Of a stretch of DNA of 64,000 bases, positions 27,998-63,224 are shown piece by piece; positions within the stretch are counted from its first letter, which is position 1, and every line of letters begins with the position of its first letter. A program made the position numbers and the translations under genes. Source of the stretch: Cladocopium goreaui (Eukaryota > Sar > Dinophyceae > Suessiales > Symbiodiniaceae); assembly GCA_947184155.2 (NCBI GenBank), contig CAMXCT020001826.1, positions 16,001 through 80,000 of the forward strand, written 5' to 3'. The notes beneath the pieces are model-generated. The model ran no database searches. It was given only the letters and a program-made list of their open reading frames with translations, and had not been told where the DNA came from.

Positions 27998-28028
<31 letters not shown>

Positions 28029-28512: not shown

Positions 28513-28543
<31 letters not shown>

Positions 28544-29074
28544 GATAGATAGGTAGGTAGATAAATAGATAGATTAGATAAATTAGATAGATTAGATAGG
28601 TTAGATAGATTAGATAGATTAGATAGATTAGATAGATTAGATAGATTAGGTAGATTAGATAGATTAGTTAGATTAGTTAGATTAGATAGATCAGATAGAT
28701 TAGATAGATTAGATAGATTAGGTAGGTTAGATAGGTTAGATAGGTTAGATAGGTTAGAGAGATTAGATAGATTAGAGAGATTAGATGGATTTGATAGATT
28801 CGATAGTTTAGATAGGTTCGATAGATTAGATAGGTTTATAGATTAGGGAGAATTAGATGGATTAGATAGATTAGATGGATTAGGGAGATTAGATAGGTTA
28901 GATAGATTGGATAGATTAGATGGATTAGAGAGATTAGATAGATTAGAGAGATTAGAGAGGTTAGATGGGTTAGATAGATTAGATAGATTAGATAGATTAG
29001 ATAGATTAGATAGATTAGATAGATTAGATGAATTAGATAGATTAGATAGATTAGATAGATTAGAGAGATTAGAT

Positions 29075-29107
<33 letters not shown>

Positions 29108-29585
29108 GTAGATAGGTAGATAGGTAGATAGGTAGATAGGTAGATAGGTAGATAGGTAGATAGGTAGATAGGTAGATAGATCGATCGATCGATCGATAGA
29201 TCGATAGATCGATAGATCGATAGATGAATAGATGAATAGATGAATAGATGAATAGATGGATAGATGGATAGATGGATAGATGGATAGATGGATAGATGGA
29301 TAGATGGATAGATGGATAGATGGATAGATAGATAGATAGATTAGAGAGATTAGAGAGGTTAGATGGGTTAGATAGATTGGATAGATTAGATAGATTAGGT
29401 AGATTAGATAGATTAGTTAGATTAGATAGATTAGATAGATTGGATAGATTAGTTAGATTAGATAGATTAGATAGATTGGATGGATTAGATTCGATAGATT
29501 AGAGAGATTAGATGGATTAGATAGATTAGATAGATTAGATAGATTAGAGAGATTAGATAGATTAGCTAGCTAGGTAGCTAGGTAG
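27781..29585 (+). repeat. 1.8 kb GATA-family microsatellite field
   Basis: Sub-blocks in order: diverged gata/gatg; gatagagata; a gatactgta 9 bp block at about 28290-28500; gata; a long tagattagat (10 bp) block; ggta; gatcgatc at 29178-29220; gatgaata and gatggata; and tagatt again. There are no long ORFs because stop codons recur. Confidence 0.95.
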
Positions 29586-34079: not shown

Positions 34080-34740
34080 AATGGAAAGCTGGGTGCAGAG
34101 CTGACGGCCTGGTACCAATGCGTTTTGCGTTTTTTCCAGCCCATGTCTCTAAAGTATTGCGCCTGCCACGAAAAAGTGAAGCCGGTTCATACGAAGTGCT
34201 GCACCTGTCACGCAAAATCATCTTAGCAAACCTGAAGATCTCATGCTCCAAAATGCAGCCCGGCCCCTGTCAGGAAATCTCCGCCCTGATCTCCTAACTT
34301 ATCTAACTCATGTGTCTCTTGTACTGCGCCTGCCACGCGAGATGCATCTTGCCAGATCTTCTTCAAATGTCCCACGCCTGCCATCGTTTTTGAAACTGCT
34401 ACAAAACCACCGCGTTTTGCTCACTTTTGACAAGGTGCGCCTGCCACGCAAAACGACATCTGAACGTCCAAAAGTTCTCCGTACCCCACAGTTTTTTACA
34501 CTTTTGACTTCGAAATGTGCTGCGCGCTACAACGGTGCGCATTTTTTCGACATCGCAACTTCTAAAAGTGCCCCCAAGCTGAGGTGTTTCACGCATTTTC
34601 ACTTGGAGATGCGCTTCGCGCCACAACGGCGTGCACTTTTTCGACATCTCAACTTCCAAAAGTGCTCCGAACGTGAGGTGCATTTAGCTTTTTCACTTGC
34701 AAATGCGCTTCGCGCCACAACGGCGTGCACTTTTTCATGG
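34080..34740 (-). repeat. composite dispersed repeat, copy 3, right part (inverted)
   Basis: Reads on the minus strand as the right half of the composite: three ~94 bp array units (cores near 34515, 34610 and 34705), the aaaacgtgaggg-type block, then four tgcgcctgccacg-type motifs, which are the complement of cgtggcaggcgca. The left end lies 2.7 kb away at 37505-37735. Confidence 0.82.
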
Positions 34741-35700: not shown

Positions 35701-35739
35701 TCTGATAAAATCTAACAACCCTCACCTGGCAGGTGGGGA

Positions 35740-37255
35740 ATGAACCCTAAAGAAACCATAAATGAAACCCTAAAGAAACTTTAAATGACACCCTACATGA
35801 CATCCCAAAGAAACCCTGAACAACACTCTGAAAATATTAAAAGAACCTTAACTGACACCTTGCTGAAACCCTAAAGAAAACCTACATGAAACCCTAAATT
35901 GAAACCGAAACGAAACCCTGAATCAAACCCTAAAGAAACCCTGAAGAAACCCTAAATGGCACCTTAAATGAAACCCTAAAGGAACCCTAAAGGAACCCAC
36001 TTGAACGTTTAGAAACCGTGAAAAAAATCTTGATAAGAAACCCTGGAATGAAACCCTAAATTGAAACCCTAAATTGAAACGAATTGAAACCCTAAAGAAA
36101 CCTTTAATGAAACCCTAAAGAAACCCTAAATGAAACCCTAAAGAAACCTTTGCTGAGAGCCTAAATGAAACCCAAACTGAAACCCTAAATGAAACCCTAC
36201 TTGAAACCCTAAGCGAAAACCTTAAACGAAACCCTAAAGAAACCCTAAATGACACCCTAAATGAAACCCCAAAGGAACCCTAAAGGAACCCACTTGAACG
36301 TTTAGAAACCGTGAAAAGAAATGCTGATAAGAAACACTGGAATAAAACCCTAAAGAAAGCTTAAACGAACTCCTGAATGAAATCCTAAATTGAAACCCTA
36401 AATTGAAACCTTAAATGAAACCCTAAAGAAACTCTAAATGAATCCCTAAAGAAACCTTAAATGAGACCCTAAATGAAACCCAAACTGAAACCCTAAAGAA
36501 ACACTAAATGAAACCCTAAGGAAAACTCTAAACGAAACCCTAAATGACACCCTAAATGAATTCTAAATGAAACCCTAAAGAAACCTTAAATGAGACCCTA
36601 AATGAAACCCAAACTGAAACCCTAAAGAAACCCTAAATGAAACCTTAAGCAAAACCCTAAACGAAACCCTAAAGGAACCCTAAATGACACCCGAAATGAA
36701 ACCGTAAATGAAGCCCTAAAGGAACCCTAAAGGAACCCACTTGAACGTTTAGAAACCGTGAAAAAAAATCCTGATAAGAAACCCTGGAATGAAACCCTAA
36801 ATTGAAACCTTAAATGAAACCCTAAAGAAACTCTAAATGAATCCCTAAATGACACCCTAAATGAAACCCTAGAGAAGCCCTAAAGAAACTTTACATGAAA
36901 CCCTAAAGAAAACTTAAATATAAATGAGACCCTGAATGAAACCCAAACTGAAACCCCAAATAAACCCTACATGAAACCCTAAAGAAGCCCTAAAGAAACC
37001 CATTTGAACGTTTAGAACTCCTGATATGAAACCCTGATAAGAGACCCTACATGAAACCGGAAAAAACCCTAAGTGAAACTCTAAAGAAACCTGAACCCCA
37101 AAGAAACCCTAAAGAAACCCTAAATGAAACCCTCAATGAAACCCCAAATGAAACCCCAAGTGAAGCCCTAAATAAAACCCTTAATGAAACCTTACATGAA
37201 ACCTTAAATGACACCCTAAATGAAAGCTTAAAGAACCCTCAAGAGACCCACGTGA
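35740..37255 (+). repeat. degenerate telomere-like array (AAACCCTAAATG)n
   Basis: Mostly 12-15 bp units of the form gaaaccctaaa plus tga, aga or gga; most contain the heptamer CCCTAAA, the complement of TTTAGGG, the plant-type telomere repeat also reported for dinoflagellates. A longer segment with gaacgtttagaaaccgtgaa recurs near 36005, 36297 and 36740 and in altered form near 37010 and 37253, so there is a higher-order layer. Confidence 0.9.
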
Positions 37256-42187: not shown

Positions 42188-42580
42188 ACCAAATTGGCAG
42201 AAATATGCTTCGTTGCTTCGCACCTTTAGGCGTTCGACCCTTTTCTTATGAATATGATTCAGGTATCCTGAATTCAGGTATCCTATGCAATGAGCATTGT
42301 TGGTGTCCAAAAAAGATATGGGAAAATACGATGGCTCGACATGCTTGGACATCGTATTTTCTCAGATCATTTTTGGTTTCTACTTATTATTGCAGAATTC
42401 CTTTCTTATCAGTCGTTTAGGTGTCCAAGTGTCCAAGTTTGTCCAAAGTCTTGTCCAGATACTGCTTCCGCTTTGTTGCATGAGGCCCGGAAAATACGGG
42501 TGAAACAAGTAGTTTGGCCCTATGATTATACAGATAGTGTTTGCGCCGCACAGGTGCATGGTTGCGCCGCACAGGTGCAA
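42188..42580 (+). repeat. local duplication, copy B
   Basis: Second copy of the 41340-41650 sequence, about 850-930 bases downstream. It ends where the TGCAA field begins. Confidence 0.8.
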
Positions 42581-43855
42581 TGTAATGCAATGAAATGTCA
42601 TGCAATGCAATGCAATGCAGTGAAATGTAATGCAATGCAATGTAATGTAATGCAATGTAATGCCATGCAATGCAATGCAATGTAATGGAATGCAATGCAA
42701 TGCAATGTAATGCAATGCAATGCGATGCAATGTAAGGCAATCTAATGCAATGCGATGCAATGCAATGCAATGCAGTGAAATGTAATGCAATGCAATGCAA
42801 TGCAATGTAATGCAATGCAATGTACTGCAATGCAATGTAATGTAGTGCAATGTAATGCAATGCAATGTAATGGAATGCAATGCAATGCAATGTAATGCAA
42901 CGCAATGCGATGCAATGTAAGGCAATCTAATGCAATGCAATGCGATGCAATGCAATGCAATGCAGTGAAATGTAATGCAATGCAATGTAATGCAATGCAA
43001 TGTAATGCAATGCGATGCAATGCAATGCGATGCAATGTAAGGCAATCTAATGCAATGCGATGCAATGCAATGCAATGCAGTGAAATGTAATGCAATGCAA
43101 TGCAATGTAATGCAATGCAATGTACTGCAATGCAATGCAATGTAATGTAGTGCAATGTAATGCAATGCAATGTAATGGAATGCAATGCAATGCAATGCGA
43201 TGCAATGCGATGCAATGTAAGGCAATCAAATGCAATGCGATGCAATGTAATGCAATGCAATGAAATGCAATGTAATGCAATGCAATGCGATGCAATGCAA
43301 TGTACTGTAATGCAATGCAATGCAATGCAATGTAATGTAATGTAATGCAATGTAATGCAATGCAATGCAATGCAATGTAATGCAATGTAATGCAATGAAA
43401 TGCAATGCAATGTAATGCAATGCGATGCAATGTAAGGCAATCTAATGCAATGCGATGCGATGCAATGCAATGCAATGTACTGCAATGCAATGTAATGCAA
43501 TGCAAAGTAATGTAATGCAATGTAATGCAATGAAATGCAATGCAATGCAATGCAATGTACTGCAATGCAATGCAATGTAATGTAATGCAATGTAATGCAA
43601 TGCAATGCAATGCAATGTAATGCAATGAAATGCAATGCAATGTAATGCGATGCAATGCAATGCAATGTACTGCAATGCAATGTAATGCGATGCAATGCAA
43701 TGCAAAGTACTGCAATGCAATGCAATGCAATGCAAAGTAATGTAATGCAATGTAATGCAATGAAATGCAATGCAATGCAATGCGATGCAATGTAAGGCAA
43801 TGTAGTGCAATGCAATGCAATGCGATGCAATGTAATGCAATGTAATGCCATCCGG
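42570..43855 (+). repeat. (TGCAA)n pentanucleotide field, 1.3 kb
   Basis: Mostly aatgc pentamers with aatgt, gatgc, agtgt and aaggc variants. The variant string gatgcaatgtaaggcaatct recurs near 42722, 42908, 43028, 43203 and 43424, giving a higher-order repeat of irregular length. Long ORFs of His/Cys/Ile/Ala/Leu on the minus strand are artefacts. Confidence 0.95.
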
Positions 43856-45520: not shown

Positions 45521-46062
45521 CAAGTTTTTACCGGGGATGGGCCTCTGGTAACATGGCTTGGACATGGAGGAAAACTTGCTCATTTGTAGATAATTCATGA
45601 CAATTCACCTATTGAAAGTGAGTATTAACTGATTTACCTGGGAGTATTGGCCCTTGGAGGACAAACAGGTTTAGTATGGTGTGCGTCCTGTGACGAGTGC
45701 CTGTAGACGAGTGTAATGCTGTGGACAGTGTCATTAGCCACCGGCACTACCAGTTTAGTACTTGGGGAAGAAGGGAAGAAGGAGTAGAGGAGTAGAGGAG
45801 CATAGGAGTAGAGGAGTGGAGGGGTGGCCTTGGGATTAGTGAGTAGCCATTAGTCACTATTAACCATTCCCAGGGTCTATGTCAGTTTGGGAGATTATAG
45901 TATCATATAGGAATAATTTCATTAGTATTAAGCATGTTATTGATTACCAGTAACCATTTGTGGTTAACCATATTAACTCTAATAACTACTATCGTCTTTA
46001 ACAATCATAGATCACTATAGATGGATGATATAAACCGTCCCTAGATGGACCATCTCCACCAG

Positions 46063-46132
46063 GTTTGGCTTGGACCTGTCACTGGTGGCACGTCTGGGTG
46101 ACCGTTTGCAGCCGTGCACGCACCGTGGAAAG
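46063..46132 (+). CDS. fumarate reductase-like flavoprotein, exon with THRGK
   Basis: After CCACCAG the frame reads FGLDLSLVARLGDRLQPCTH followed by RGK. This matches the FxLxLxLxAxLGGHSxxRTHR segment of NADH-type fumarate reductases (FAD-binding family 2). The His-Arg of THR takes part in dicarboxylate binding in the family. The usual GGHS is here GDRL and the Arg before TH is Cys, which would weaken or abolish substrate binding if real. The 3' end is unsure: AAAG then GAATGA would be a GA donor. Confidence 0.68.
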
Positions 46133-46539
46133 GAATGATTTCCAGGGATGATCATCACCTATGTGCTGGGACCTGGGTTAAGGTGAATTATGATTCTAAC
46201 TTATTCACTGGTCGAACGTTGTTTCTGTTCCTATCTGGGTCACTTGGGCTCGTTATGTAATGTTATTTGACCTTTTCTATCGGAATTTACATCGGTGACA
46301 GCATCACAAATGTGGGAACCAAACGGGCACCCGTTTGTGCATTCGTCCATTGGGTCCCAAGACTCGACCAATTCCCATGTTTTTTTTCCATGGGATCCAC
46401 GTTGTCAAAACATCGAGATTTTGAAGCTTTATAGCTCCAAAATCCACAACAAACTCCGCAACAAGAAGTTGACGGTTAGATAAGCTCTTCAAAACGCGCC
46501 CAAGAAAGATAGAGTGAGTTGCCACACATGTTTTTTTAG

Positions 46540-46627
46540 TGGCATTGCCGTCACCGTCCCTGAGGCACTGATTCAAATGCTGGAGAAGGTGGCTGAAAAG
46601 ACCAACCGCCCCAGGATTATCACCAAG
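46540..46627 (+). CDS. fumarate reductase-like flavoprotein, exon (MLEKVAEK)
   Basis: Follows TTTTTTTAG and ends at CAAG before GTGCGT. Reads GIAVTVPEALIQMLEKVAEK, then TNRPRIITK. In the family this is the G-x-x-I-x-x-A-L-x-x-x-L-x-K-x-A-E helix after the THR motif. Both splice sites are good, and the order relative to the preceding exon is as expected. Confidence 0.65.
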
Positions 46628-47296
46628 GTGCGTGTCGTTGGAATCGGTGAGTTGTATAGGTATGATAAGGCTAGGCAATATCAGGGCTTAACTAGCCGAA
46701 ATGGCGTTTAACGAATTAAGATTACAATGTTTAACATTTGATCATAGTTGACCTACGAAACAATGATAAACATGTGGAAGTAGCATCATTTGACCACTGA
46801 CTATGTGGATTTGACCAGCCATAAAGTATGGATTTGATGGGATCTAAACAGTGAATAATCCACATTGGATAGATTATAACAACCTGATCGTGATGTCTTT
46901 ATAAATGTAGGTTAGGATAGAATCATCCGAAGATGACCGAGCGTTTCATGCTGGTGAACTGGTGAATGCTGATAATATCGCCAGATATTGCAACATGGCT
47001 TTGTTGAGCAACGGTGTGTGTCATAGCTAAATGAATCACTCGAATTTTATGGACGTATATTAATATTGAGGTATAGATGTGAATGGTGGATATTGACCTT
47101 AAACTCAAGCAAGAAGAGTTTGGAACGGTCTGATGGTCACCTACCTGGGGGAAACCATCAAACGGTTCAAACGTGCCTTGACTTAGTAATTGGATTATGG
47201 TGGATGCTAACCAAAGTTTACCAACCAACAGTGGGAAAAAGGTAACATGGTGAACTATGAATATACCAGAAACCAACTGTCCAAATATGTGCTCCT

Positions 47297-49392: not shown

Positions 49393-49583
49393 TGCTTGTG
49401 ATAGGTTGCTAAGTTGCATGGCTCTCCATGTAAGTGTAAGCTTTGTTGCCAGTTGCACCGGAAATGGTTTTGTTTGAAAATGGGGTCCCAAACCTATGGG
49501 TTTATCACAGTTGTCGCTGCTATTTGATGGCCATTTGCGAATCTACGCCATTCTCAAACAAATTCAAATCCCAGAATTAACGT

Positions 49584-50060
49584 TATGTTATGTTGTGTTG
49601 TGTTGTGTTGTGTTATGTTATGTATGTAATGTAATGTAATGTAATGTAATGTAATGTAATGTAATGTAATGTAATGTAATGTAATGTAATTAATGTAATG
49701 TAATGTAATGTAATTAATGTAATGTAATGTAATGTAATGTAATGTAATTAATGTAATGTAATGTAATGTAATGTAATGTAATTAATGCAATGTAATGTAA
49801 TGTAATGTAATGTAATGTAATTAATGTAATGTAATGTAATGTAATGTAATGTAATTAATCTAATGTAATGTAATGTAATGTAGTGTAATTAACGTAATGT
49901 AATGTAATGTAATGTAATGTAATTAATGTAATGTAATGTAATGTAATGTAATTAATGTAATGTAATGTAATGTAATGGAATGGAATGGAATGTAATTAAT
50001 GTATTGTAATGTAATGTAATGTAATGTTATGTAATGTAATGTAATGTAATTAATGTATGT
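49584..50060 (+). repeat. (AATGT)n field with ~34 bp higher-order period
   Basis: Pentamers interrupted by taattaatg at 49687, 49711, 49745, 49779, 49817, 49851, 49886, 49919 and 49949; most intervals are 33-35 bases. This implies six pentamers plus one four-base step amplified as a unit. Confidence 0.95.
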
Positions 50061-50092
50061 TTGTATGTATGTATGTATGCATGGATGAATAG

Positions 50093-50120
50093 TATGGTAT
50101 GGTATGGTATGGTATGGTAT
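50093..50120 (+). repeat. (GGTAT)n run
   Basis: Five ggtat units. Confidence 0.9.
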
Positions 50121-50124
50121 GAGA

Positions 50125-51015: not shown

Positions 51016-54000
51016 ATGGTGAGCCAGAATCACCAAAAGGCCCCGGTGAGCCATAATCGCCCCCAGGCCCTGGCGAGCCACAATCGCCTCCAGGCCCCGG
51101 CGAGCCATAATCGCCCCCAGGCCCCGGCGAGCCACAATCGCCTCCAGGCCCCGGCGAGCCATAATCGCCCCCAGGCCCCGGCGAGCCACAATCGCCTCCA
51201 GGCCCCGGCGAGCCATAATCGCCCCCAGGCCCTGGCGAGCCATAATCGCCCAGAAGCATCATTGCAACTCAATCCCCAGCACACAAAACTACATCAAGTC
51301 ACGTTTAGGTCCATGTCCGCTACAAAGGAGAAACATGTTGATTCTAGCGCATTAGGTTGTGCCCAATGTCGTCGGGTTCGGTATGCTAAAGCATGCACAG
51401 GGTTGACTACGGTCCTTTCTCGGTATCAAGAGTGGGCAGCGCCTTTCTTAAAGCTTTATTCTCGCTACCAAGTGACGCTGCAAAATGAAATGGTTGCAAA
51501 GGTGTTCAAAATAGGAATGCAGTTCCAACAGTTTCTGGCGCACACTGATGTAGCTTATTTTCGTGCTGCATGCCGTTTCAAAATTTCTATACATCCATGC
51601 GCCTGTCACTTGTGTACATGCATGTCAGTGGCCAAAAAAAATCCTACGAGGGCTTCGCATAAAATTGTTGACCAGCCAACCCACAGCCGCAGCCTCAAAG
51701 GAAAAGAACAAGGCGGCAAAAACAACACACGCTGGATAAAAGCAAGACAAAAAAAGCTACAACATGTGCAAGCTATCACCGGTAACACTTGTGGCATGCA
51801 AGGTCCGCACAGGCATTCTTTGACAATACACTCAGTCGAAAAATGCCATGGAACTTATGAATTGCGCAAGCGTAGCCGCAAAGGTATGCCTGAAGCTGTG
51901 TCCACCGACATATATGCCAAAAGTCATAGTAAACGACAACAAAAGAAATGCAAGGCTGTGCTAGTCGAAGCTTGCGCCCACTGTAAAAACAACACCAGCA
52001 TCAAGGAAACGCACACTCAGTATTTGAAATGCATCAACCACACCAAGTACAAGAATGGTATACACTATCATGCCGATGATGCCAGTCCTCTTCGTGGTCG
52101 ATGTATTGGGGGCAGACCGGCTCCAGTTTGGACTTCAATTTCTTCTACTTCTCCGTCTTCTTTTTCTATTTTATCTACCCCAAGCGCGCCAGTTTGCTTC
52201 TTGTGTTCGCGCTGTGCTCCTGACTATGTGCCATTTGCTTGTCAGAAAATATATTCTGCGAAGTGTTCCACTTGCAAGCGCGCTAATCGCAATCAATGTG
52301 GAAACCGGGAGGGCAGTTCATTCTTTTGCAAGTGGTGCTTTGACGAAGACATAACACCATCTGTAGAAGCCATACAATCAGCTGCGCAACAAACATGTAA
52401 AGCCATACGATCTATAAGAACGAAGATTTTGCCATGTCGCTGGGTGGGGCATGCACGCAAAGCACGCGCCCAGAGAATCTGGCGGAGTCTGCGCTCGATA
52501 GTCAATGGCAAGTTAGGTACTCAAAATCTAGCCCCAAGTAGAAGGAAGACAAAGGACAATGTGGAGCATATGAGTTCATGGAGTTTGCAACTCAAAACAG
52601 GCAAGAAGGATGCGGAAACTAGAAAGTGTTGGAGTACAACAACAAGACCCAATACCCATATGAAACCTGTCCGATTTCGAGGAGATGGAGCAGAAACATT
52701 ACAGTCTCATGAACATGAAGCTTGGAAAGGCAGCAACCAAAAAAAGCAACCGCGACAACAAAGGAAACATGTCAAGAGAACTAGCTTTTGTGCAATCACC
52801 CGCACGTGGCGAAGTAGGACAATGAAACAGGTAGGGCAATCACGTAGCTCAACATACACTAATCGAAACCTAGTTTTTAGGTTCAAGATGTTTAAGACAC
52901 GATGCGAAGGTGCCAGCTCTGTTTCTTCATTACGGCAGCATACTTTGTACCATCATCCACTTGTCTCTCCCCAGCTGCTGGGGTCGGCGGATCATTTGCA
53001 TGGGAGGATTCAATTCCCGAAGCGTCGTTTTTCGCAAACTTTAGAGACACTTCCCGCAGAAAAGGTAGAGTCAAAAATGGCAGTAGCCAACAACACCATT
53101 GATGTGTCCTGTGACGCGTTGGGGTCGGTAGTTCAAACACACACGGGAAAGCCGTCCATTGAGCTCGAACATGCAAAACTTGATATGCGCGGGGCGCTGC
53201 CTGTGCGATGTCAAGGAGGCGGCACAGAACAATTGCAGTGTTTCATGTGTTTAGCATATAAAAGCGCATATGTCCCAAAACAATTGAATGATGAGTATGT
53301 GTCGCACTGCTACACCTGTGGTCGCGGAGCGTGCGATAGCCACGGATCCTGGGTAGTCGGGCACTTCCACTGTGCACTTTGCCATGCGACTGACGATGGT
53401 TTATTGGCGGAGGTAAAGGACACTTTTGCAGTAAGATGTCTCAGCAAAACCTTTCAGAACCAAAGGTTGCTACATACGAATGAGGAAGCATTTAACGACT
53501 TAATGCTGACTTTGTGCACGGGAGGAATAAACCGTCCAAGAGGAATTGGAAACTATGAGGAACAAGGCCTGAAGGTGCAGCCACAGGAAGCAGCAGGCGT
53601 AGAGCTTCCTTGGGACGACGCGCGGCAGCTGGTAGAAGCAATCGTACTGTCTCGAGTTGACACACCAGATGATGCAGTAAAGGTGCTCGGACAGAGTTGG
53701 GTGCCAACTTGGGACGGCTGGAAAGAATTGCGCCAATGTGCGACAGAGCGCTGCTGTGTTGCAATCGCAGAGCGACTGTGCGACATCGCCCAGCAAAATG
53801 CCCCTTACCAAAGCAAGACCGACACCCAAGCATTGCAGGCTTTGGCGTCCGAAGGGTTCATGTGGCGGAAAGCGCTGTCACACGGCGTGAATAACTGCTT
53901 GATCGATTCCCTGATGTTGTGCCTGTCGTATGAACACATTTTGCCTAATAACTTAACAACAGATGTCACAGCAAGGCGACGCGTTGCAGCTGCATGCAGA

Positions 54001-56478
54001 AAGCATTTGATTCAAGAGATTGGGGACGAAGTGGCTCCAGGCAGCAATGGGCTTTTCCCGTTCCTGGATGCGCATCGGGATGGCCCCAGAATTGTAGACT
54101 TTTTGTTCCATTGGTTTCGCGTTGTTGCGCGCACGAATATGCTAATTCATGTGCATGACAGATTTGGTGAGCAGGCTGCAGGTGCAGACTGGAATAAAAT
54201 TGCAGTGAACCTTGGCCATAGGTACCCACAACAGACTGTTTTGCAGCTACACATTTATAACCACACTTCTGTTCGGGGTAGAGGGTATCATTTTGATAGC
54301 TTGCTCCCGATCACTGGGCGTGAAGCCGAATCAAAGAAAAAGAGAAGCCGTACCGTAGCGGCCACCAACGCAATGAAGATAGAAGCAGAGTCCGTTCTGA
54401 CAGGAGCGGAACTCAATGATTTGCAGCGAGAGCCGCAGAGAAACGGTGGCACACCTGAGAAGCCGAGTTGTAACAAGGAGGCAGCAGAGCAGCAAGCAGA
54501 TCAAAGAGCAGAAGCCGTATTTGCAAAGATGGCGTGGTACTTTCATGGCACGACTTTCGCGACATCCTGGCTTGATGCGCTGCTGGCAAATCTGATTTTT
54601 CATGGATATATGTTACAGTTTCCAGATTTGCTTGCGCGTCAGGATGCACGCTTTCACCTATGTAGAACATGCCAGGCAAGTTTAGAACCGGAGCAACTAG
54701 AGAGCGACAAAGCCTTCGACTTACAGCATCATCTCGCGAAGGCAATTTTGTTTTTCACAAGTAGGAGCCGAGATGAGGTGAATGCTGAGGTACATGTGTA
54801 CGATTCAACTACCACTGACCTCAGTGTACCGCATGAAGTTTATACCATCGGTCGACTTGACAGCTTGCTGGTGCCAGTCTTCCGCCTCTATCGCTACAAA
54901 AATGGCCGTTACGCTGCCTTGTTGCCTGCTAACCCAGCAGAACGGCCTGTGTTCACAAGTGGCGACTTGCATAAAGCAGCCCAAGGTAGCAAACAAAACG
55001 ACATGAATGCAACGTGCACTGTAGCGCCATCGACAAATTCGTTTGGAACAAGTGGCTGCGCTGCCGGCATAGGCGCAGCGCCCGACCTGTGCGCACCGCA
55101 GAGTGAGCAAGTGCGTGAAATCTTGCAGCGGTTCTGTGACCAAAGAGGCGCAGATGTGCAAGTTGACGAGACAGACGCGCATCGAGTGAGTGATGCTTGG
55201 TGGAACTTAGATGCACTGGGAATAATTTTGCACACCCTTCTGCAGGCAGGGTTGACTTTTGCAGACGCAGGCATGCATCACGCGCGTAGATTAGCAAATC
55301 AGTGGCGCGGTTTTTATAGTGTGCACACGCAAGGTACTGGGAAACGATTGTCAGATGGTTCAATGGAGACAGCTCAGAAGGAAAATGTCGGTCACAAGAC
55401 GGCTGCAATAGATGCAGCTGCTACCTGCTCTTTGCACAGCACATCAGCCGAGAGACAAGAACCAACTAGTACCAGTGAAGTGAATCTGAGCAGTAATGCG
55501 CGAAAACGGAAGGCAACGCAGCAAGATGCAAGTGCAAGCCCACTGCGCAAAACAGAGATGAATGTGCCTCCTCGCCGTGTGCGCCACAAAGCACCGCCGG
55601 TCGGATCAACAACAGCACCACCATCTGGAACTGGTTCGCTGCAAGGCGCTAGCACTGACGCAGAAGATATCTATCCTTTGCGGCTCTGGAAGCCGTCGCA
55701 AGGAAACAAAGACCCTCGGGCAGCATATGATTTTGCAATGCAAGACGCAACAGCTCTTCTTTCAGACAAGCCTACATTGCCGGAACGCCTGCATGCCGCA
55801 ACTGACCCTGAGATGGCATATGACTTGCCGGATTACCATTGCGCATTTCGAAGCTGCGGGTTCGAGTGTGCGACACAGGCGGCGCTCGCAGAACACGTTG
55901 CTCAGCATCATGCGATTGCGTTACATGACTTGGCATTACGGTGGTCATCACAGGTTGGCCCTGCGCAAGCGACATTCCAGGCATATCAAGACCTGCTAAC
56001 GCAGCGCTGCCAACAGTCTGGTCCCCTTGCGACCTGTTCTATTGACCGACGCTGTTTGCGGAGATTCCGTTCTAACATGCTGGGTCACCATGTCGGTACC
56101 GCGATCTGCTTCGTGTGCGCGCGTAGGTTCCCATTCGTGGACGGTTTTCCGAACCAACAAATTTCATGGCTACGAGCATACGAGCCACACACTGGATTGT
56201 TCTTCGACCATGTTCCTGAGATGCTCGAAGCTTTGTTGGGGATGAGCACGTATCACGCACGTTATGTGACGACCTTGCCTGCTGATACGCAACCCGGTTT
56301 GCAATCCGAATTGGCGCAGTGGACCTGTACCATCGCTTGCGCCCCATATAATATGAGCCTGCTTGCATGCCCAGAAGATAAAAGATGCATACAGCGGTGT
56401 CCGTCGAATCGGCTGTGCACACATTGCGAGATACCTATGTGCATGTCTTGCCGCACCAGGATATATCGACAGAAATGA
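51016..56478 (+). CDS. Helitron polyprotein part 1: zinc clusters, OTU protease, C2H2 finger
   Basis: 1820 codons. Residues 2-82 are nine copies of a 9-residue unit (SHNRxQAPA). If the repeat is not coding, the ATG at 51316 (residue 101) is the better start. Cys clusters lie near 115-118, 394-444 and 742-794; the last (CxxC...HCxxC...HCxxC) resembles a RING/PHD cross-brace. An OTU-type cysteine protease fold follows: NNCLIDSL with catalytic Cys961, and GYHFDSLLP with His1092. Around 1178-1310 is a second OTU-like region (WLDALLANL ... NGRYAALLP) whose histidine position is not His. A C2H2 finger sits at Cys1609-His1632, and Cys clusters run from 1674 to the end. The frame breaks after about 56453, where the zinc cluster CxxC continues in the next ORF. 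Confidence 0.85.
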   Translation: MVSQNHQKAPVSHNRPQALASHNRLQAPASHNRPQAPASHNRLQAPASHNRPQAPASHNRLQAPASHNRPQALASHNRPEASLQLNPQHTKLHQVTFRSMSATKEKHVDSSALGCAQCRRVRYAKACTGLTTVLSRYQEWAAPFLKLYSRYQVTLQNEMVAKVFKIGMQFQQFLAHTDVAYFRAACRFKISIHPCACHLCTCMSVAKKNPTRASHKIVDQPTHSRSLKGKEQGGKNNTRWIKARQKKLQHVQAITGNTCGMQGPHRHSLTIHSVEKCHGTYELRKRSRKGMPEAVSTDIYAKSHSKRQQKKCKAVLVEACAHCKNNTSIKETHTQYLKCINHTKYKNGIHYHADDASPLRGRCIGGRPAPVWTSISSTSPSSFSILSTPSAPVCFLCSRCAPDYVPFACQKIYSAKCSTCKRANRNQCGNREGSSFFCKWCFDEDITPSVEAIQSAAQQTCKAIRSIRTKILPCRWVGHARKARAQRIWRSLRSIVNGKLGTQNLAPSRRKTKDNVEHMSSWSLQLKTGKKDAETRKCWSTTTRPNTHMKPVRFRGDGAETLQSHEHEAWKGSNQKKQPRQQRKHVKRTSFCAITRTWRSRTMKQVGQSRSSTYTNRNLVFRFKMFKTRCEGASSVSSLRQHTLYHHPLVSPQLLGSADHLHGRIQFPKRRFSQTLETLPAEKVESKMAVANNTIDVSCDALGSVVQTHTGKPSIELEHAKLDMRGALPVRCQGGGTEQLQCFMCLAYKSAYVPKQLNDEYVSHCYTCGRGACDSHGSWVVGHFHCALCHATDDGLLAEVKDTFAVRCLSKTFQNQRLLHTNEEAFNDLMLTLCTGGINRPRGIGNYEEQGLKVQPQEAAGVELPWDDARQLVEAIVLSRVDTPDDAVKVLGQSWVPTWDGWKELRQCATERCCVAIAERLCDIAQQNAPYQSKTDTQALQALASEGFMWRKALSHGVNNCLIDSLMLCLSYEHILPNNLTTDVTARRRVAAACRKHLIQEIGDEVAPGSNGLFPFLDAHRDGPRIVDFLFHWFRVVARTNMLIHVHDRFGEQAAGADWNKIAVNLGHRYPQQTVLQLHIYNHTSVRGRGYHFDSLLPITGREAESKKKRSRTVAATNAMKIEAESVLTGAELNDLQREPQRNGGTPEKPSCNKEAAEQQADQRAEAVFAKMAWYFHGTTFATSWLDALLANLIFHGYMLQFPDLLARQDARFHLCRTCQASLEPEQLESDKAFDLQHHLAKAILFFTSRSRDEVNAEVHVYDSTTTDLSVPHEVYTIGRLDSLLVPVFRLYRYKNGRYAALLPANPAERPVFTSGDLHKAAQGSKQNDMNATCTVAPSTNSFGTSGCAAGIGAAPDLCAPQSEQVREILQRFCDQRGADVQVDETDAHRVSDAWWNLDALGIILHTLLQAGLTFADAGMHHARRLANQWRGFYSVHTQGTGKRLSDGSMETAQKENVGHKTAAIDAAATCSLHSTSAERQEPTSTSEVNLSSNARKRKATQQDASASPLRKTEMNVPPRRVRHKAPPVGSTTAPPSGTGSLQGASTDAEDIYPLRLWKPSQGNKDPRAAYDFAMQDATALLSDKPTLPERLHAATDPEMAYDLPDYHCAFRSCGFECATQAALAEHVAQHHAIALHDLALRWSSQVGPAQATFQAYQDLLTQRCQQSGPLATCSIDRRCLRRFRSNMLGHHVGTAICFVCARRFPFVDGFPNQQISWLRAYEPHTGLFFDHVPEMLEALLGMSTYHARYVTTLPADTQPGLQSELAQWTCTIACAPYNMSLLACPEDKRCIQRCPSNRLCTHCEIPMCMSCRTRIYRQK
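51019..51258 (+). repeat. 27 bp minisatellite in the 5' end of the ORF
   Basis: Nine units of gagccacaatcgcctccagg-type sequence; alternate units differ at two positions, so the true period is 54. All three minus frames are also open here, which shows the frame is kept by unit length, not by selection. Confidence 0.92.
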
Positions 56479-57863
56479 AGCCGCTAGAGGCACTGAGCAA
56501 CGACTTGTTCCTGGGGCATCCGCCGAGAGAACTATATGCACAAGAATGCACGATGTTGGAATTATTATGCGCAAGTCCTTGCATGACTGCATTAACTTGT
56601 TTCAGCATTGAATGGCGGTATCTCCAAGATCGCAGTCTAGCCCAAGATGCGCTCATGAATCGACATCGTCTGTGTGCAAAGGGCAATGCCACGACATTCC
56701 CGCTCCCCTGGGAAGACCTGTTAGCAGAATTTGAGCGTCTGGGAACCCCGGCCACCAAGGCTTCCGTGAATATGCTGCCGCACGTTGGTAAGGAACTAAG
56801 TGACAAGGTAGCCGTCATCATAAAAATCGGTGACAAGACAGATAAAGAGGCAATACGTCAACAAATTATACATCAGGCCGTAGTTCGTCGCCGGGTCGTT
56901 GTCGGGCTGATTGCTGCCATGGTTGCGCGTAACCATCCGGCATATCAGGGTCTAGATATGGCAGTCGTAGAAACGCGCGCTGAGATGCTCCCCGAGAATG
57001 ATGTGCCGGCTGAAATTATTGCGTTGCTTGACAACGATGGGAGCCTAAATCAGGTGTTGCGCCAAAAGGCTGCCACACCGGTGAATGATCAAATGACGGC
57101 CGAAGAGGCAAGACGAGAATTTGGTCACATGCTGAAACCCAATGCGGTTGTCCTGGAAAAGACAAGTGCTGGATGCCAAGACGTGAATGCTCAACATGTG
57201 TCTGCATTGAAAGAGATTGTGGCGCGCGCTGAGCCAGCATCTACACAGCCTCTGCCCGAAGTGACGTTGTATACTGGGACCAAACTTATGGACCAGTTCC
57301 AGCCGCTGTATTTTGCGTTGGCTTTCCCCTTCGTCTTCCCGTACGGCATTGGCTTACCCGACGTTCCCAAGTGGAGCCAGCGACAACGGCCACGAAGACA
57401 CGCGGATGATCCATATGTGGAGCTGAACACGTGGGTGCGCGCCATGGCGCGGCGCATCGAAGCCCAAGTCAGTCGTGACTGGGTTTTTGGCTTTACATCC
57501 TGGAATTTGCTTTTCCGATCTGCGCTGAATCTTTCACGTACTACAGACGCCTATTCCCGCACATTCTTTGATGAGGACACCCAAGAATGGGTGCAGCCGA
57601 CAGGGCGCCATGTCGAAGCGGCGGCCCAGCAATTGCTCCTTGCTTTAAAAGGATCGTACATAGATGTCAATGGGCAACCACGGCCCGTCAAGGGTGATGT
57701 CGCGAAGCTCCGCTATGTGCAAGGGCTAAAGCCTATGGCCCGAAAACTTTTAAACAACATGCGGCATACAGCCCAAGGCTTGCCTGGGACTCAAGAAGCT
57801 CGGAAAAGGATGCGGTCGAGATTCAAGCTATGCGTATCCGGTACGGAGTGCCGTTGTTTGTGA
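56385..57863 (+). CDS. Helitron polyprotein part 2: DUF6570-like and start of Helitron-like N domain
   Basis: 492 codons in the frame -1 relative to part 1. The first ~23 codons are out-of-frame read-through; true sequence probably resumes near STEMKPLEALSNDL. The segment ECTMLELLCASPCMTAL and the following region resemble the domain (DUF6570 type) that precedes the Rep nuclease in many protist and oomycete Helitrons. From residue 309, YFALAFPFVFPYGIGLPDV begins the Helitron-like N domain. It ends out of frame; similarity resumes in part 3 at about 57822. No function is proven for the DUF6570-like part. Confidence 0.82.
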   Translation: MHTAVSVESAVHTLRDTYVHVLPHQDISTEMKPLEALSNDLFLGHPPRELYAQECTMLELLCASPCMTALTCFSIEWRYLQDRSLAQDALMNRHRLCAKGNATTFPLPWEDLLAEFERLGTPATKASVNMLPHVGKELSDKVAVIIKIGDKTDKEAIRQQIIHQAVVRRRVVVGLIAAMVARNHPAYQGLDMAVVETRAEMLPENDVPAEIIALLDNDGSLNQVLRQKAATPVNDQMTAEEARREFGHMLKPNAVVLEKTSAGCQDVNAQHVSALKEIVARAEPASTQPLPEVTLYTGTKLMDQFQPLYFALAFPFVFPYGIGLPDVPKWSQRQRPRRHADDPYVELNTWVRAMARRIEAQVSRDWVFGFTSWNLLFRSALNLSRTTDAYSRTFFDEDTQEWVQPTGRHVEAAAQQLLLALKGSYIDVNGQPRPVKGDVAKLRYVQGLKPMARKLLNNMRHTAQGLPGTQEARKRMRSRFKLCVSGTECRCL

Positions 57864-59854
57864 CATTTACGCCAGATGAAGCGCATCAGCTGCTTTTTGT
57901 GCGGATGACGCGCGTTCGCTCCTGTGACCCTGTTCGCGCCGCCTCCATAGGGCAAGATTTCCCGGCTGGAGAAATGTTTTTCCCGCATTTGGGCTTGCAG
58001 GATGCTGTTGCCATGGGACCTTTCGAGCATGAGTTCACTTTACCGATGTCTTGGGCAGAACGCCGCGAAGTTCTAGCGCGGGATCCGTTGGCTGCCGTGG
58101 ATGGGTTTCGGGTACTGACGCATTTGATGTTGAAGCATCTCTTCGGCGTTCGTGTGTGTCCATATTGTCCAGATTGCAATGGCTTCAGTGGACTGGAGCC
58201 GTGTCAAGACCTTCGCGGCAGCAACGCAGAAGCAAACGGTGGCATATTCGGTCGCGTGGACGCAGGATATATATCCCTCGAAGCTCAGAAGAGCAGCGGG
58301 GCAGAACATGGCCACATGCAAGTGTTTGTGCAGTGTTTGCATCAACATACTTCACTAGAGGAAATCTTCCGGCTTTCGCACGACAAGTTGGCTGCGTTGC
58401 GCGCAGAATACGAAGCATATAATGCACATGTGTGTCATGCAAGTTACGTGGGCCAATCGAATGAAGACATGGAACGCCGCATCGCCGCTGCGGAAGCATC
58501 CTGGCCAACGCACGAGCTGGATGTGACGATGACAACGATTCCGACATATCAACTGCAACGTGCTACTGAAACCGATAACGCCCAAAACGAAGCTGCAGAC
58601 TGGCGAAGGAGCTACATGGCAGAAGACGTCGTCCAGCTGCAGCTTCTGAAACAGCATCACTACCATCCTTACAATGAAACTAGCCAAGGTCGCGTCCCAT
58701 TGGCAGGCTGCCAAAAGAGTGACCGGCCAGGGCTGTGTAAGAGTGATTTTCCTCGCACGCAATGGCTCTGTGCGCAACCTACTGTATTATGTCCTTGCAA
58801 GTTGAAAACGTATGGGATGCCAAGCGGTGGACGAAAAAATCGCTTAGGAGCTTTGCATGGACCCTGTGGGCATGAGTGGTTAAATGGCTGCGCACCAGCA
58901 ATGTTGGCAGGACTACGTGGTGCAAATTGCGATGTGCAGGTGCCATACCGGCTTCCATATTCATGTCCAACTTGCGGAGACCAATTGACAGCCGAAGAAC
59001 GGCAGCAGATGTCATTGGCGGCGCAGCGGGCGCAAGATTCACAAACCGGGTATTGCGCGGATTACTGCTCCAAGGGCCAGCCGATGGGACATGGAGAAAT
59101 CAGAGAATTCCAAAAAGGACACGAACAGTTGCATGCGCAGCATGCGCGGAAACCATTAGATGACCTAGGCAAGCGACATGCAAACCGATTCCTCAGCGAT
59201 GCGTATCTCAAAGGCGTGGTGCGAGGACAGGTCGAATGTTGTAATCTGCGCGCCTATCATCGCGACGACACGGTCGTCTCAGCCGAACGCATTGCAACAA
59301 CAATCTTCGAAAGCTTCCCTGGGGCTGCTTTTGCGGACTTTGTTGCGAAATATCACAACGGAGATGAGGTAGCGTCGTCCATGCGCCGCGCCGCGGTGAA
59401 ATGGACTCGGAGGCAATCGTCTGGTGTCCGACACCTAGGGACACTTGATATTGTAGAAGTTTATGGGCACCGGCCCAAGACAGCAGAGGTGTGGTGGCTG
59501 TCGCCGTATGAGTTCGTTACAAATTGGGCAGTCACTATAGCTCGTGTACCTACGACGCAACGTGAATGGGAATTGGAAGAGCGTAGTAGCTGGGACGTTT
59601 CGTTGACGGCAGCAGGTCTCAAATTGATACAAAAGCAAACAGATCCCGACAAGAAGTTGCAACTGCAACCAGGGACTCATTATTGCCTGGCTGTGCAAAC
59701 TACGCCGGGTCGAATATGTTTAGAAGATGGAACGGCAACAGCACAGCTCCGACACCGTTGTTATCTGCTACGTCGGCGTCGCCCGTGTTGCCCGCACTTT
59801 GAGAATTTCGCCCGTACCCCTGCAGAAAGCGGGTCAAGAAGAGGTAAACGCTAG
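57830..59854 (+). CDS. Helitron polyprotein part 3: rolling-circle Rep (HUH/Y2) nuclease
   Basis: 674 codons. Opens RIRYGVPLFVTFTPDEAHQL, the usual entry to the Rep core. CPYCPDCN and the SNAEANGGIFGRVDAG stretch follow. The HUH pair is His160-Gly-His162 (EHGHMQVFVQCLHQHTSL) and would bind the metal. The catalytic tyrosines are Tyr408 and Tyr412 in GYCADYCSKGQ, the Y-x3-Y-x2-K signature of Helitron Rep, which cut and carry the DNA strand during rolling-circle transposition. All key residues are intact. The C-terminal ~20 codons are out of frame: the true sequence passes to part 4 at about 59800-59830, where a +1 shift is needed. Confidence 0.92.
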   Translation: MRIRYGVPLFVTFTPDEAHQLLFVRMTRVRSCDPVRAASIGQDFPAGEMFFPHLGLQDAVAMGPFEHEFTLPMSWAERREVLARDPLAAVDGFRVLTHLMLKHLFGVRVCPYCPDCNGFSGLEPCQDLRGSNAEANGGIFGRVDAGYISLEAQKSSGAEHGHMQVFVQCLHQHTSLEEIFRLSHDKLAALRAEYEAYNAHVCHASYVGQSNEDMERRIAAAEASWPTHELDVTMTTIPTYQLQRATETDNAQNEAADWRRSYMAEDVVQLQLLKQHHYHPYNETSQGRVPLAGCQKSDRPGLCKSDFPRTQWLCAQPTVLCPCKLKTYGMPSGGRKNRLGALHGPCGHEWLNGCAPAMLAGLRGANCDVQVPYRLPYSCPTCGDQLTAEERQQMSLAAQRAQDSQTGYCADYCSKGQPMGHGEIREFQKGHEQLHAQHARKPLDDLGKRHANRFLSDAYLKGVVRGQVECCNLRAYHRDDTVVSAERIATTIFESFPGAAFADFVAKYHNGDEVASSMRRAAVKWTRRQSSGVRHLGTLDIVEVYGHRPKTAEVWWLSPYEFVTNWAVTIARVPTTQREWELEERSSWDVSLTAAGLKLIQKQTDPDKKLQLQPGTHYCLAVQTTPGRICLEDGTATAQLRHRCYLLRRRRPCCPHFENFARTPAESGSRRGKR

Positions 59855-62800
59855 ATTGACCATGACCTATTTCCGCGCGTGGACCCTCGATGCGAACAAT
59901 GCTAGCGCCAATGTTCCGTTTGTGGGCCGCTTGAAAGCGCCAACAGAAACTTGGGTACAAGCTCTGCGCATGTGGTTGACGCATTTGCCATGCGAAGAAA
60001 CAAAACGGCACACCGGCAACTTCTTATCAGTCTACCGTGTCCGTCCCAGCGGTGCAGAGGAAGCGAACAGTGACGACAGTGGCATTGATGAACCGCTTCT
60101 AGTTACTCCCACTAGCCTGCCGACAGCTCTAAAAACGTCATTCCGGCAAACTGGCAAAAGGGCTACTGCACATAAAGCAGAACCAGGTCCAGAAGTGCAC
60201 GATAAAGTTTTGGCAAGCTACGAGGAAGCAGCGGCGCAAGCGGAAGCAACATGGGCAAAAAACAACCAATATAAGAATGTGACGAATACAAAGACGCAGA
60301 GCAACAATACGTTCCACGCATACGATCCAGCCGCAGTTCGTCGGGCAATCAAAGCTTTAAACACGAAAAAAGCCGACAGAGCTGTAGTTCGAAAGATTCC
60401 CACGCCGGGCACGTGCGAAGCCGAGGCACGAGCAACATGTGAGAAAGTCGATGCCTTCCTACGCGATTTGCGCGGAACGAGCAAATGCAATCCGGAACAG
60501 CTAGCGTTCATCGAAATCATCTGCGCCCGGGTGAAACATGAAGCTGTGTCCGGACAAGAGCGCGGCGGCACGGTAGACACCAATACCGAAGCGTTGCGCT
60601 GGGCGCTTCATGGCGGCCCAGGCACAGGTAAGTCATACGTGCTGAACATAGCACGGCGCGATTTGTTCGAGGAGTGCCTTGGATGGACGCCAGGAAAGGA
60701 ATTTCAAGTTGTCGCATTTCAAGCTGTCAATGCCGAGCCTTTGGATGGCGAAACCATGCATCAAGCATTGGGGTTGGCTTGGCACGGCAACGATCACAAC
60801 GTCGACGCGCAGCGGATTCTTGATCTTGCACAACACGCCGTGCAGTGGCGCTGGCTGCTGATTGACGAAATCAGCATGGTGAGTGCCGAGATGTTAGCAC
60901 GCCTCGAGGCCCGATGTCGCCAACTTGTTTTAGATGTCTCCGCAACAAAATATGGTAAGCAGAATCGCAACTGCGTTGCGCCCTTTGGTGGGCTCAACGT
61001 CATTCTGTCTGGAGACTTGTGGCAGTTACCTCCGCCGCGTGGAACGTTTCTCGGCCAAATCCCATGGCAGCTTGTAACAGGCGTTTCATCTAAGAAGCTG
61101 CCATTAAGTTTGCAAGGCCAACAGCTCGTATGGGCCCCCAGCGCGCAGGGTGGCTTACAAGGAGTGACCGAACTGGTTCGCTGCGAGCGAACGCAAGACG
61201 TGTGGCTCCAAGATCTGCAAGCAGAACTTCGCGTGGGGCACTTGTCCGAAGACAACCATGCATTCTTGCATGGTCGACCAACAAAGGTTCCAGGAAGTTG
61301 GTGCGCTAGGACTCAACGGCCTATGTGTCAAGAAAACATATGTTATCAGTTGTACAAAAACGCCTCCACAGCGACAGCGATTCTCAAGTACGAATGTCCA
61401 ATCTGTCACGCTGAACGGGATACCAAGCGTCTAGTTGCCGTGGACGCAGACGATCCTCGCTTCGTAGACGGTTTCAGCATGGCGCGGGGGATTTTCCACA
61501 CGAACGGGGTGAAGTGCCACGTGAATAAACTTCGCGCGGAACAATGGGCGCGGCAGCATGGGCAAATAATCTATTATGCAGTGGCTACGGATAATGTATC
61601 ATCGCGAGCTTTGCACGAGAAGCCCGACATCGCCCAAGACAAGCTCACATGGCTGCAACGCAGTGATGCTGATTGCGGGAATCGGTATGGCGTCCTTCCG
61701 CTGTGCATTGGTATGCCTGTACAAGCGCGGGAACACCTACACCGGAAGGATTTCAAGATCTTGAAAGGGTGTCATGGAACCATTTGCGGGTGGTCAACCA
61801 TTGAGACAGAAACAGCGGCGGCAGATGGAGCAGTAATATGGAACAAACTCCCCGATTATATCTTCGTGCGTTTTGAGACGCGAACACGTTGGACAATTCC
61901 AGGCATCGATCAAGAGAACGTCTTCCCGGTCAGCATACAAAGTGCACAGTGGTTTCTAGACGCAGGCCGCACCAACCCACAATTGAAAGTCACCCGGTAC
62001 CAATTTCCCATCGCGCCCGACTTCGCTGACACGTTCTACGGCGCACAAGGAAGCACAATAGAGCCGGGCGTGATCGTTGACATGGTCGGTGCTGACCCAA
62101 TAGCGGCGTACATTGGGATGACGCGGAGCCGCACACGGCAGAAGATCTTGATCTACCGACCGTTCCCGCTGGCGCCTTTTCAAGAAGGCCTTCCACTGGG
62201 ACGGCAACTTCTGCTTGATGTGTGGAAGCAGGAGCCGGTGGATTGGGATGCGTTGCGCAAGAAGTACTTGGACGAAAGGCTCTGTCAAGAGTGTGGGGAG
62301 ATGAAGCGCAAAGACGCCTTCACCAAAGCGCAGTGGAAACAGGAGACCTATCGGGTCTGCAAAGAATGCACCGCGCAGAAGCGCGAGGCAGGCACACCAT
62401 ATCGTTGCACGCAGTGCGGCCTATGGCACGCTGCTTGTCACTTTGCAAGCAAGCATCGAAATCCACGGTGGAGCATGTACCGAGTATGCTTCACCTGTGA
62501 TGCAGTCAAGCAATGTTTTATTTGCAAAACAAAACAAACGCAGGAATATTTCGGTACCGCAGCATGGAAAGCTAGGGAATCAAAACGAAGAGTTTGCTTG
62601 CAATGCCAAGCCAAAACTCGTGGTTCTTGGACGTGCGCGGCCTGTCAACAACGGAAGCCCCAGCAGCAATTTTCCATTTTTATCTCCAAGCGGCCCTCTG
62701 GGGAAAACGGAACTCAGATGTGCAACACATGCCGTACCGCCATTGTGCAGGATGCTATCCGCAAGCGTGCTGCCACGTCCGCCACGGCGCGACTGGAACC

Positions 62801-63224
62801 TCTTCGCAAAAGAGCCCGCCACGTGCAGATTCTACGTGACACCTGGGAAGCGATTGCAAGAAACCGAGGCAGCCAAAAAAGGCAAGCCAGTGACACCACG
62901 GGAACCCCCGTTTCACAGACAAAAGAGGACACGAAAGAATGTCAAGAAGTAACAAAGACCACATTACGAGCGTATGTTTGTCCAGCCTGCGGCAAAGCTA
63001 CAAAATCCACAATAATTACTGGAGAGGTGCTAACACAAGGACATTGCGGACGACGCTTTCGTGTCAAGAATGGTGCAGTGTGTCGGCAGTACACCCACTA
63101 TTGTCCGGCTTGCAACACGAAGGTGACATCAACAAAATCACACGGACGAATACAATCGAAGCACAGAAATGACACAGGACGATATTGTAAAACATATCAG
63201 TGGACCAGTGCCGGCCCAAAGTAA
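59727..63224 (+). CDS. Helitron polyprotein part 4: PIF1-family helicase with zinc-finger tail
   Basis: 1165 codons; roughly the first 30 are read-through, and true sequence starts near SPVPLQKAGQEEVNARLTMT. The helicase runs from about residue 254: Walker A GGPGTGKS (296-303, Lys302), Walker B LLIDEIS (Asp380-Glu381), motif III GDLWQLPPP (429-437), motif V GAQGST (772-777) and motif VI YIGMTRSRTR (795-804). These define a 5'-3' superfamily 1B helicase of the PIF1/Helitron type that would unwind DNA during strand transfer. From 853 to 1154 come at least six CxxC...CxxC pairs spaced by about 20 residues (CQEC...CKEC, CTQC...CFTC, CFIC...CLQC, CAAC...CNTC, then CPAC...CPAC). The tail resembles Stc1-type fingers in spacing and may bind DNA or chromatin; this is inferred. 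Confidence 0.92.
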   Translation: MERQQHSSDTVVICYVGVARVARTLRISPVPLQKAGQEEVNARLTMTYFRAWTLDANNASANVPFVGRLKAPTETWVQALRMWLTHLPCEETKRHTGNFLSVYRVRPSGAEEANSDDSGIDEPLLVTPTSLPTALKTSFRQTGKRATAHKAEPGPEVHDKVLASYEEAAAQAEATWAKNNQYKNVTNTKTQSNNTFHAYDPAAVRRAIKALNTKKADRAVVRKIPTPGTCEAEARATCEKVDAFLRDLRGTSKCNPEQLAFIEIICARVKHEAVSGQERGGTVDTNTEALRWALHGGPGTGKSYVLNIARRDLFEECLGWTPGKEFQVVAFQAVNAEPLDGETMHQALGLAWHGNDHNVDAQRILDLAQHAVQWRWLLIDEISMVSAEMLARLEARCRQLVLDVSATKYGKQNRNCVAPFGGLNVILSGDLWQLPPPRGTFLGQIPWQLVTGVSSKKLPLSLQGQQLVWAPSAQGGLQGVTELVRCERTQDVWLQDLQAELRVGHLSEDNHAFLHGRPTKVPGSWCARTQRPMCQENICYQLYKNASTATAILKYECPICHAERDTKRLVAVDADDPRFVDGFSMARGIFHTNGVKCHVNKLRAEQWARQHGQIIYYAVATDNVSSRALHEKPDIAQDKLTWLQRSDADCGNRYGVLPLCIGMPVQAREHLHRKDFKILKGCHGTICGWSTIETETAAADGAVIWNKLPDYIFVRFETRTRWTIPGIDQENVFPVSIQSAQWFLDAGRTNPQLKVTRYQFPIAPDFADTFYGAQGSTIEPGVIVDMVGADPIAAYIGMTRSRTRQKILIYRPFPLAPFQEGLPLGRQLLLDVWKQEPVDWDALRKKYLDERLCQECGEMKRKDAFTKAQWKQETYRVCKECTAQKREAGTPYRCTQCGLWHAACHFASKHRNPRWSMYRVCFTCDAVKQCFICKTKQTQEYFGTAAWKARESKRRVCLQCQAKTRGSWTCAACQQRKPQQQFSIFISKRPSGENGTQMCNTCRTAIVQDAIRKRAATSATARLEPLRKRARHVQILRDTWEAIARNRGSQKRQASDTTGTPVSQTKEDTKECQEVTKTTLRAYVCPACGKATKSTIITGEVLTQGHCGRRFRVKNGAVCRQYTHYCPACNTKVTSTKSHGRIQSKHRNDTGRYCKTYQWTSAGPK

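Follow-up and report, generated by a model that had tools for sequence, protein, structure and literature searches.

A giant Helitron-superfamily polyprotein in Cladocopium goreaui with an OTU protease and adjoining ubiquitin-tail-like motifs

The window analysed here is a stretch of 64,000 nucleotides from the dinoflagellate Cladocopium goreaui (assembly GCA_947184155.2, contig CAMXCT020001826.1, or C1826, positions 16001-80000), and it was compared with the 1.17 Gb genome. Between 51016 and 63224 on the forward strand it holds four overlapping open reading frames (ORFs) in three frames, of 1820, 492, 674 and 1165 amino acids, which jointly encode a RepHel-type protein of the Helitron type (Table 1). 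By its protein sequence the element is a member of the Helitron superfamily, with an HUH Rep bearing Y-x3-Y and a PIF1-type helicase in one protein. That Helitrons and Helentrons carry OTU domains has been published before (PMC4067079, PMC9741609 and PMC6431247); new here is the motif RF[RQV]GGG ahead of the first OTU domain, OTU1.

The window copy is frame-broken, either decayed or mis-assembled, and an intact copy is present in the same genome. This sibling, on contig C2558, is 99.3% identical to the window across 19 kb and carries the entire protein as a single open frame of 4074 codons, or 4069 when counted from the Met at the sixth codon. The two copies differ by three 1-base insertions or deletions (indels) located at the ORF junctions; long homopolymers were rejected as the source of these frame changes, as the runs at those places are only 2-3 bases long. 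Other long stop-to-stop sibling frames were found on C668 (3965 codons), C1175 (3812) and C192 (3494). A polyprotein of about 4,100 residues, as described in the original prediction, is thus true of the family, and its further statement that the Rep and PIF1 core makes up less than half was borne out, the part from DUF6570 through the end of PIF1 amounting to about 47% of 4069 residues. From 1581 first-look candidates, 40 genome matches to the last ORF were scored, the window included, with 75-100% identity; 36 of these 40 main matches were without an internal stop.

Table 1. Features of the element and its upstream flank, in window coordinates
Feature	Position	Strand	Basis or remark
Stretch upstream of the gene	46009..46900	+	96% identical on C1302, C663 and C14, each also holding gene copies
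Four ORFs	51016-56478, 56385-57863, 57830-59854, 59727-63224	+	ORF listing
Variable N-terminal region, opening with a 27-bp tandem repeat (51038-51251)	51016..53205	+	A single open frame in this copy and in siblings
CRR domain, C-x2-CRR-x2-YA-x2-C and the next ~75 residues, within the N-terminal region	51355..51630	+	Pattern shared by 6 siblings and 6 relatives
Degenerate RCIGGR (52099), then older FYVE/PHD-like C8 finger (52195-52338)	52099..52338	+	
Degenerate RFRGDG motif	52672..52689	+	RFRGGG at the same context in P0007 and the C1302 copy
RCQGGG, ubiquitin-tail-like motif, proposed protease cleavage site	53206..53223	+	
FYVE/PHD-like cross-brace zinc finger (C-x2-C..C-x2-C-x4-C-x2-H..C-x2-C)	53239..53382	+	7 Cys invariant in 9 sequences; weak fold matches
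OTU1, intact-looking OTU cysteine protease	53821..54312	+	Cys961 at 53896, His1092 at 54289, Asp1094 at 54295; dN/dS 0.12-0.20
OTU2, OTU fold without catalytic Cys (Ser1184 there) or His	54460..54927	+	Fold, residues
C2H2-like finger (55834-55926) and Cys-rich clusters (56107, 56368)	55666..56477	+	Kept in relatives; dN/dS 0.12-0.20
DUF6570	56481..56957	+	Pfam 6.8e-9
Rep (HUH) region	56958..59790	+	HGHMQ at 58307, GYCADY at 59048; frame changes interrupt it in the window copy
PIF1-type helicase	60486..62270	+	Walker A at 60612; Pfam 2.9e-10; PDB PIF1 1.3e-6; dN/dS 0.07-0.13
Tandem Stc1-type zinc fingers	62274..62795	+	Stc1 matches in relatives; dN/dS 0.10-0.15
Two zinc-ribbon-like repeats, C-terminus	62973..63224	+	By eye

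The protease that had been proposed for this protein is supported by structure prediction, which gave OTU1 an OTU fold with the catalytic Cys, His and Asp all kept. Its recognition required this approach, as the Pfam OTU model matched neither P0001 nor the OTU1 piece. A PDB profile search with A1 returned no relative. The second OTU-like region likewise has the fold, but neither the Cys nor the His of the catalytic site remains; it is a diverged OTU paralogue, predicted to be catalytically dead. A VTD-type protease gave no match by Pfam in the window or in sibling P0005.

When 3270 residues from the C1175 copy served as protein query, with scoring confined to the 7983 candidates that shared the most words, 50 relatives emerged, including entries from C. 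goreaui and Polarella glacialis, and a search with OTU1 alone yielded 23, adding Durusdinium trenchii. The original prediction allowed that relatives might lack the accessory parts and leave the fusion unique to this locus; this is not so, a profile built on four closely related OTU1 sequences having detected OTU1 in 26 of the 50, as 27 copies. The Cys box is present in 25 copies and the His box is kept in 24 of those 25, the second OTU1 copy of P0038 having lost its His, while the partial matches in P0027 and P0030 are without the Cys box. Many of the remaining 24 relatives, which were not tallied individually, start downstream of the OTU1 region; P0043 and P0044 have their N-termini and no OTU was detected in them. 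OTU2 was found in 7 of the 50, with cross-hits falling on the OTU1 domains of P0035 and P0023, and in some later-found proteins. In P0045 and P0048 OTU1 is present in degenerate form. At residues ~190-420 of P0045, beside its degenerate OTU1, a further segment bears OTU boxes of classical appearance (GGGDCLFFS...HWIALW) and could be a replacement protease; it is unconfirmed, Pfam and PDB sequence searches having given no match.

Directly ahead of the conserved module of finger, pre-OTU stretch and OTU1, and in otherwise unconserved sequence, stands R-F-[R/Q/V]-G-G-G. The tail of ubiquitin is RLRGG, which the motif resembles. The window itself has RCQGGG in this place, accompanied by RCIGGR and RFRGDG, which are older sites in degenerate form. 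In order to count the motif, OTU1 was clustered at 70% identity into 28 representatives, of which 25 have at least 95 residues upstream; P0013, P0063 and P0064, with fewer, and the shortened sibling P0005 were left out. GGG occurs upstream of OTU1 in 21 of the 25 against 2.17 expected from shuffles, and the strict form [RK][FYMLIVC]xGGG in 14 against 0.085, figures that gauge conservation and not chance because related sequences are not independent. The residues flanking the motif are far less conserved. Among all OTU1-bearing proteins, unclustered, the strict form has 25 occurrences in the 15,734 residues upstream of OTU1 and none in the 78,600 downstream.

The GGG nearest to this place lies ~97-111 residues from the OTU Cys box when no FYVE-like finger stands between and 205-242 residues when one does. 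In 22 chosen proteins there are 24 such fingers, and 20 are preceded by a listed site no more than 35 residues away, two of these sites being the degenerate RCIGGR. Those without a listed site are the fingers of P0054, P0061 and P0069 (GGG only) and the second finger of C3668 (QFQGGG). P0012 and P0059 each have two motif-finger units, and in P0035 the motif is found on both sides of the finger.

The region ahead of the motif differs widely among copies, yet it remains open for hundreds of codons. From these open frames and the shared CRR domain, the N-terminal regions are judged to be coding. The region as a whole is not alignable for dN/dS, and conservation is shown for the CRR domain only, where diverged copies have 29-49% identity and dS exceeds dN; its pattern count omits matches in P0052 and P0061, which belong to another finger. 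C1175 and C668 match at 97% identity downstream of a point 2 bases ahead of the motif; over the 900 bases preceding the motif they show no similarity, while the upstream part of C1175 resembles C2558 at 81-87%. At least one complete N-terminal region was therefore replaced at the motif. By eye, hydrophobic segments that may span a membrane precede the GG motif or the OTU region at the N-termini of P0021, P0033, P0043 and P0046.

Zinc fingers occupy both ends of the protein. The cluster first called RING/PHD-like holds a putative finger, which is better described as a FYVE/PHD cross-brace on weak fold scores; Pfam gave no RING/PHD match in the window. The C2H2-like and Cys-rich region also has no Pfam match in P0001. 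For the long Cys-rich tail, where a check for Stc1 had been suggested, Stc1 (PF12898) was above the Pfam cut-off in pieces of the relatives P0046 (1.4e-10) and P0055 (6.2e-7), and under it in P0048 (3.5e-4; 21.5 against 24.8 bits), P0005 (0.0036), P0022 (0.69) and the window, where it is not significant (E 2.4). On the likeness of its name to fission-yeast Stc1, such a tail is a candidate binder of chromatin or RNAi proteins. The Polarella relative P0055 ends in a long Stc1-like finger array, and P0033 in many zinc-ribbon-like repeats with a CoiA_N match (1.6e-8). Against the window, C3668 is 97% identical up to about residue 934 of P0004 near the C-terminus, followed by ~390 unaligned bases and then by 88% identity.

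The Rep-helicase core was originally thought to be intact. Its hallmark motifs (HUH, as HGHMQ; Y-x3-Y, as GYCADY; and Walker A) are indeed present, but the Rep region is interrupted by the frame changes in the window. Pfam gave no match in window ORFs P0001 and P0003, so that Helitron_like_N is not found in P0003; the model is just under its cut-off in P0005 (28.6 against 28.9 bits) and over it in the relatives P0033, P0045 and P0048.

The ratio of nonsynonymous to synonymous substitutions (dN/dS) was obtained by the Nei-Gojobori method for four sibling pairs, some with saturated dS. It is low for PIF1 (0.07-0.13), the Stc1 tail (0.10-0.15), OTU1 and the C2H2/Cys region (both 0.12-0.20), and higher for OTU2 (0.21-0.35). 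Selection thus maintains the accessory protease and fingers, with looser constraint on OTU2 and on the front finger; OTU1 and the tail are under purifying selection.

Our favoured reading, to which we give about an even chance, is a frame-broken copy of an autonomous Helitron-superfamily lineage of dinoflagellates with one giant polyprotein, in which OTU1 is predicted to process its own chain by cutting after the GG of RF[RQV]GGG, as arterivirus OTU proteases do. The cut would separate the N-terminal region and zinc-finger units from the OTU/Rep-helicase part. OTU2 would act non-catalytically, for example as a substrate- or ubiquitin-binding copy, Rep would nick and join DNA that is unwound by the helicase, following the general Helitron scheme, and the same OTU may also strip ubiquitin from transposase or host factors. 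Self-processing is favoured because a protease of a ubiquitin-cutting type adjoins ubiquitin-tail-like sites at domain boundaries, and because the OTU protease of equine arteritis virus (EAV) has the putative cleavage site RLIGG (PMC5695851). The original prediction proposed that the extra domains counter host ubiquitin or chromatin control; the ubiquitin-tail-like sites in the polyprotein favour self-processing at least as much. More tentatively, and short of an even chance, the transposon may be akin to a self-processing viral polyprotein whose OTU cuts encoded ubiquitin-tail mimics (RFRGG/G) and frees zinc-finger proteins, with the N-terminal product as a replaceable cassette at the cut site; only one copy pair breaks at the motif itself.

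Several observations weigh against these readings. The window site is RCQGGG and not RF[RQV]GGG. In four of the 25 representatives (P0020, P0046, P0062 and P0070) the sequence before OTU1 is devoid of GGG, P0020 having RPLIGGS, and 7 of the 21 that bear GGG are without the strict form. P0071, found later and serving as the single fresh test, does not fit the strict pattern, having VHLRGGA ahead of its finger and RMRTGGA behind it. No such motif was found between Rep and helicase, so that processing would release the N-terminal part only. The dN/dS of the FYVE-like finger is 0.36-0.50, that of the pre-OTU stretch is 2.09 in C668/C1175 (from few changes), and linkers reach 1.1, several pairs having saturated dS; for the CRR domain of the near-identical pair C2558/C1302, dN is 0.025 and dS 0.031. 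Between the C1302 copy and C2558 there is an indel of ~120 bases that ends 8 bases before the motif, and C192, C2558 and C3668 diverge 28 to ~160 bases before it. The breakpoint argument thus rests on C1175/C668, and exchange at the motif in several pairs was rejected.

It is also conceivable, though less likely, that OTU1 is mainly a deubiquitinase acting on transposase or host silencing factors and that the GG motif has another role. The OTU fold and triad of OTU1 are in keeping with this, as is the report that VTD domains of zebrafish Helitrons are active deubiquitinases and that 121 VTD-bearing Helitrons also have OTU (PMC9741609), but such an activity by itself leaves a ubiquitin-tail-like motif at the domain boundaries of the same protein unexplained. 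That RFxGGG serves to begin or to link the conserved module, or marks a recombination junction, independently of the protease, seems unlikely. The switch in C1175/C668, no more than 2 bases from the motif, and the nearby end of the C1302 indel would fit such a role, and a Met lies a few codons ahead of the motif in several copies, the predicted start of P0040 being four codons ahead. On the other hand, several copies keep the N-terminal region open over hundreds of codons, with a CRR domain conserved across families, the codons of the motif vary synonymously, and motifs recur between domains. Helitrons do capture gene fragments (PMC6431247), but functionless passengers of host origin are extremely improbable here and were rejected, given selection at low dN/dS and the same domain order in diverged families.

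Among known systems, Helentrons with an OTU-like cysteine protease share RepHel, N-terminal zinc-finger-like motifs and an element-borne OTU (PMC4067079, PMC6431247). In contrast to these, the protease of the present element is fused in one frame of ~4000 amino acids and an AP endonuclease was not detected, there being no Pfam match in the window, in P0005 or in the Pfam lists of the 50 relatives; strictly speaking, the element is therefore no Helentron. The available portions of the same two papers make no mention of a pseudo-OTU, Stc1-type tail or GG motifs in Helentrons, and Stc1 tails or OTU cleavage sites for Helitrons were likewise not found in the portions of the literature consulted. 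The zebrafish Helitron DrT2 (VTD and OTU) is alike in joining two papain-like-type protease domains to RepHel, and inactive VTD copies occur in insect proteins (PMC9741609); here there is no VTD by Pfam and the second domain is an OTU paralogue. Arterivirus PLP2 and tymovirus PRO resemble OTU1 as OTU-fold proteases inside the polyprotein that they cut (PMC5695851, PMC3968130), but those are RNA viruses with an unrelated polyprotein, cleavage here is a prediction, and the tymovirus PRO sites, as described there, are not di-glycine. A scan of viral contigs with P0004 gave no match.

Canonical Helitrons end in TC...CTRR with a hairpin and insert between A and T with no target duplication. Such ends were not found for this element; the flanks are common to copies, and the 3' flanks are long repeats. 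The similarity of the upstream stretch indicates that the element or a duplicated unit extends 5 kb or more beyond the ORF in the upstream direction, and downstream similarity to other copies continues to the window end; part of the flank similarity may be segmental duplication. Near-identical groups (~99-99.98% over 6 kb, partly with flanks) are formed by C668, C5639, C318, C460 and C5682, by C153, C1295 and C132, and by C663 and C14, and reflect recent activity, segmental duplication or redundant assembly. Elsewhere in the window there is a 303-residue ankyrin-repeat ORF (19946-20857, forward strand; Ank_2 7.3e-54). Long arrays of short tandem repeats, of the types AGAT, AATGAAACCCTA, TGCAA and TATGTAATG, lie at 27917-29585, 35739-37239, 42576-43848 and 49582-50121, and a similar 94-bp tandem unit occurs at 8640-9008, 22342-22669 and 34502-34736, inverted once.

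The reason for OTU proteases in Helitrons and Helentrons is debated, the proposed roles being chromatin signalling and, in general terms, cleavage of the Rep/helicase protein (PMC4067079), with protection from degradation proposed for VTD (PMC9741609). A conserved ubiquitin-tail-like motif beside the protease makes this question a one-construct experiment. If the motif is not cut, the explanation by host ubiquitin gains weight; if it is cut, a eukaryotic DNA transposon would mature its proteins like some RNA viruses.
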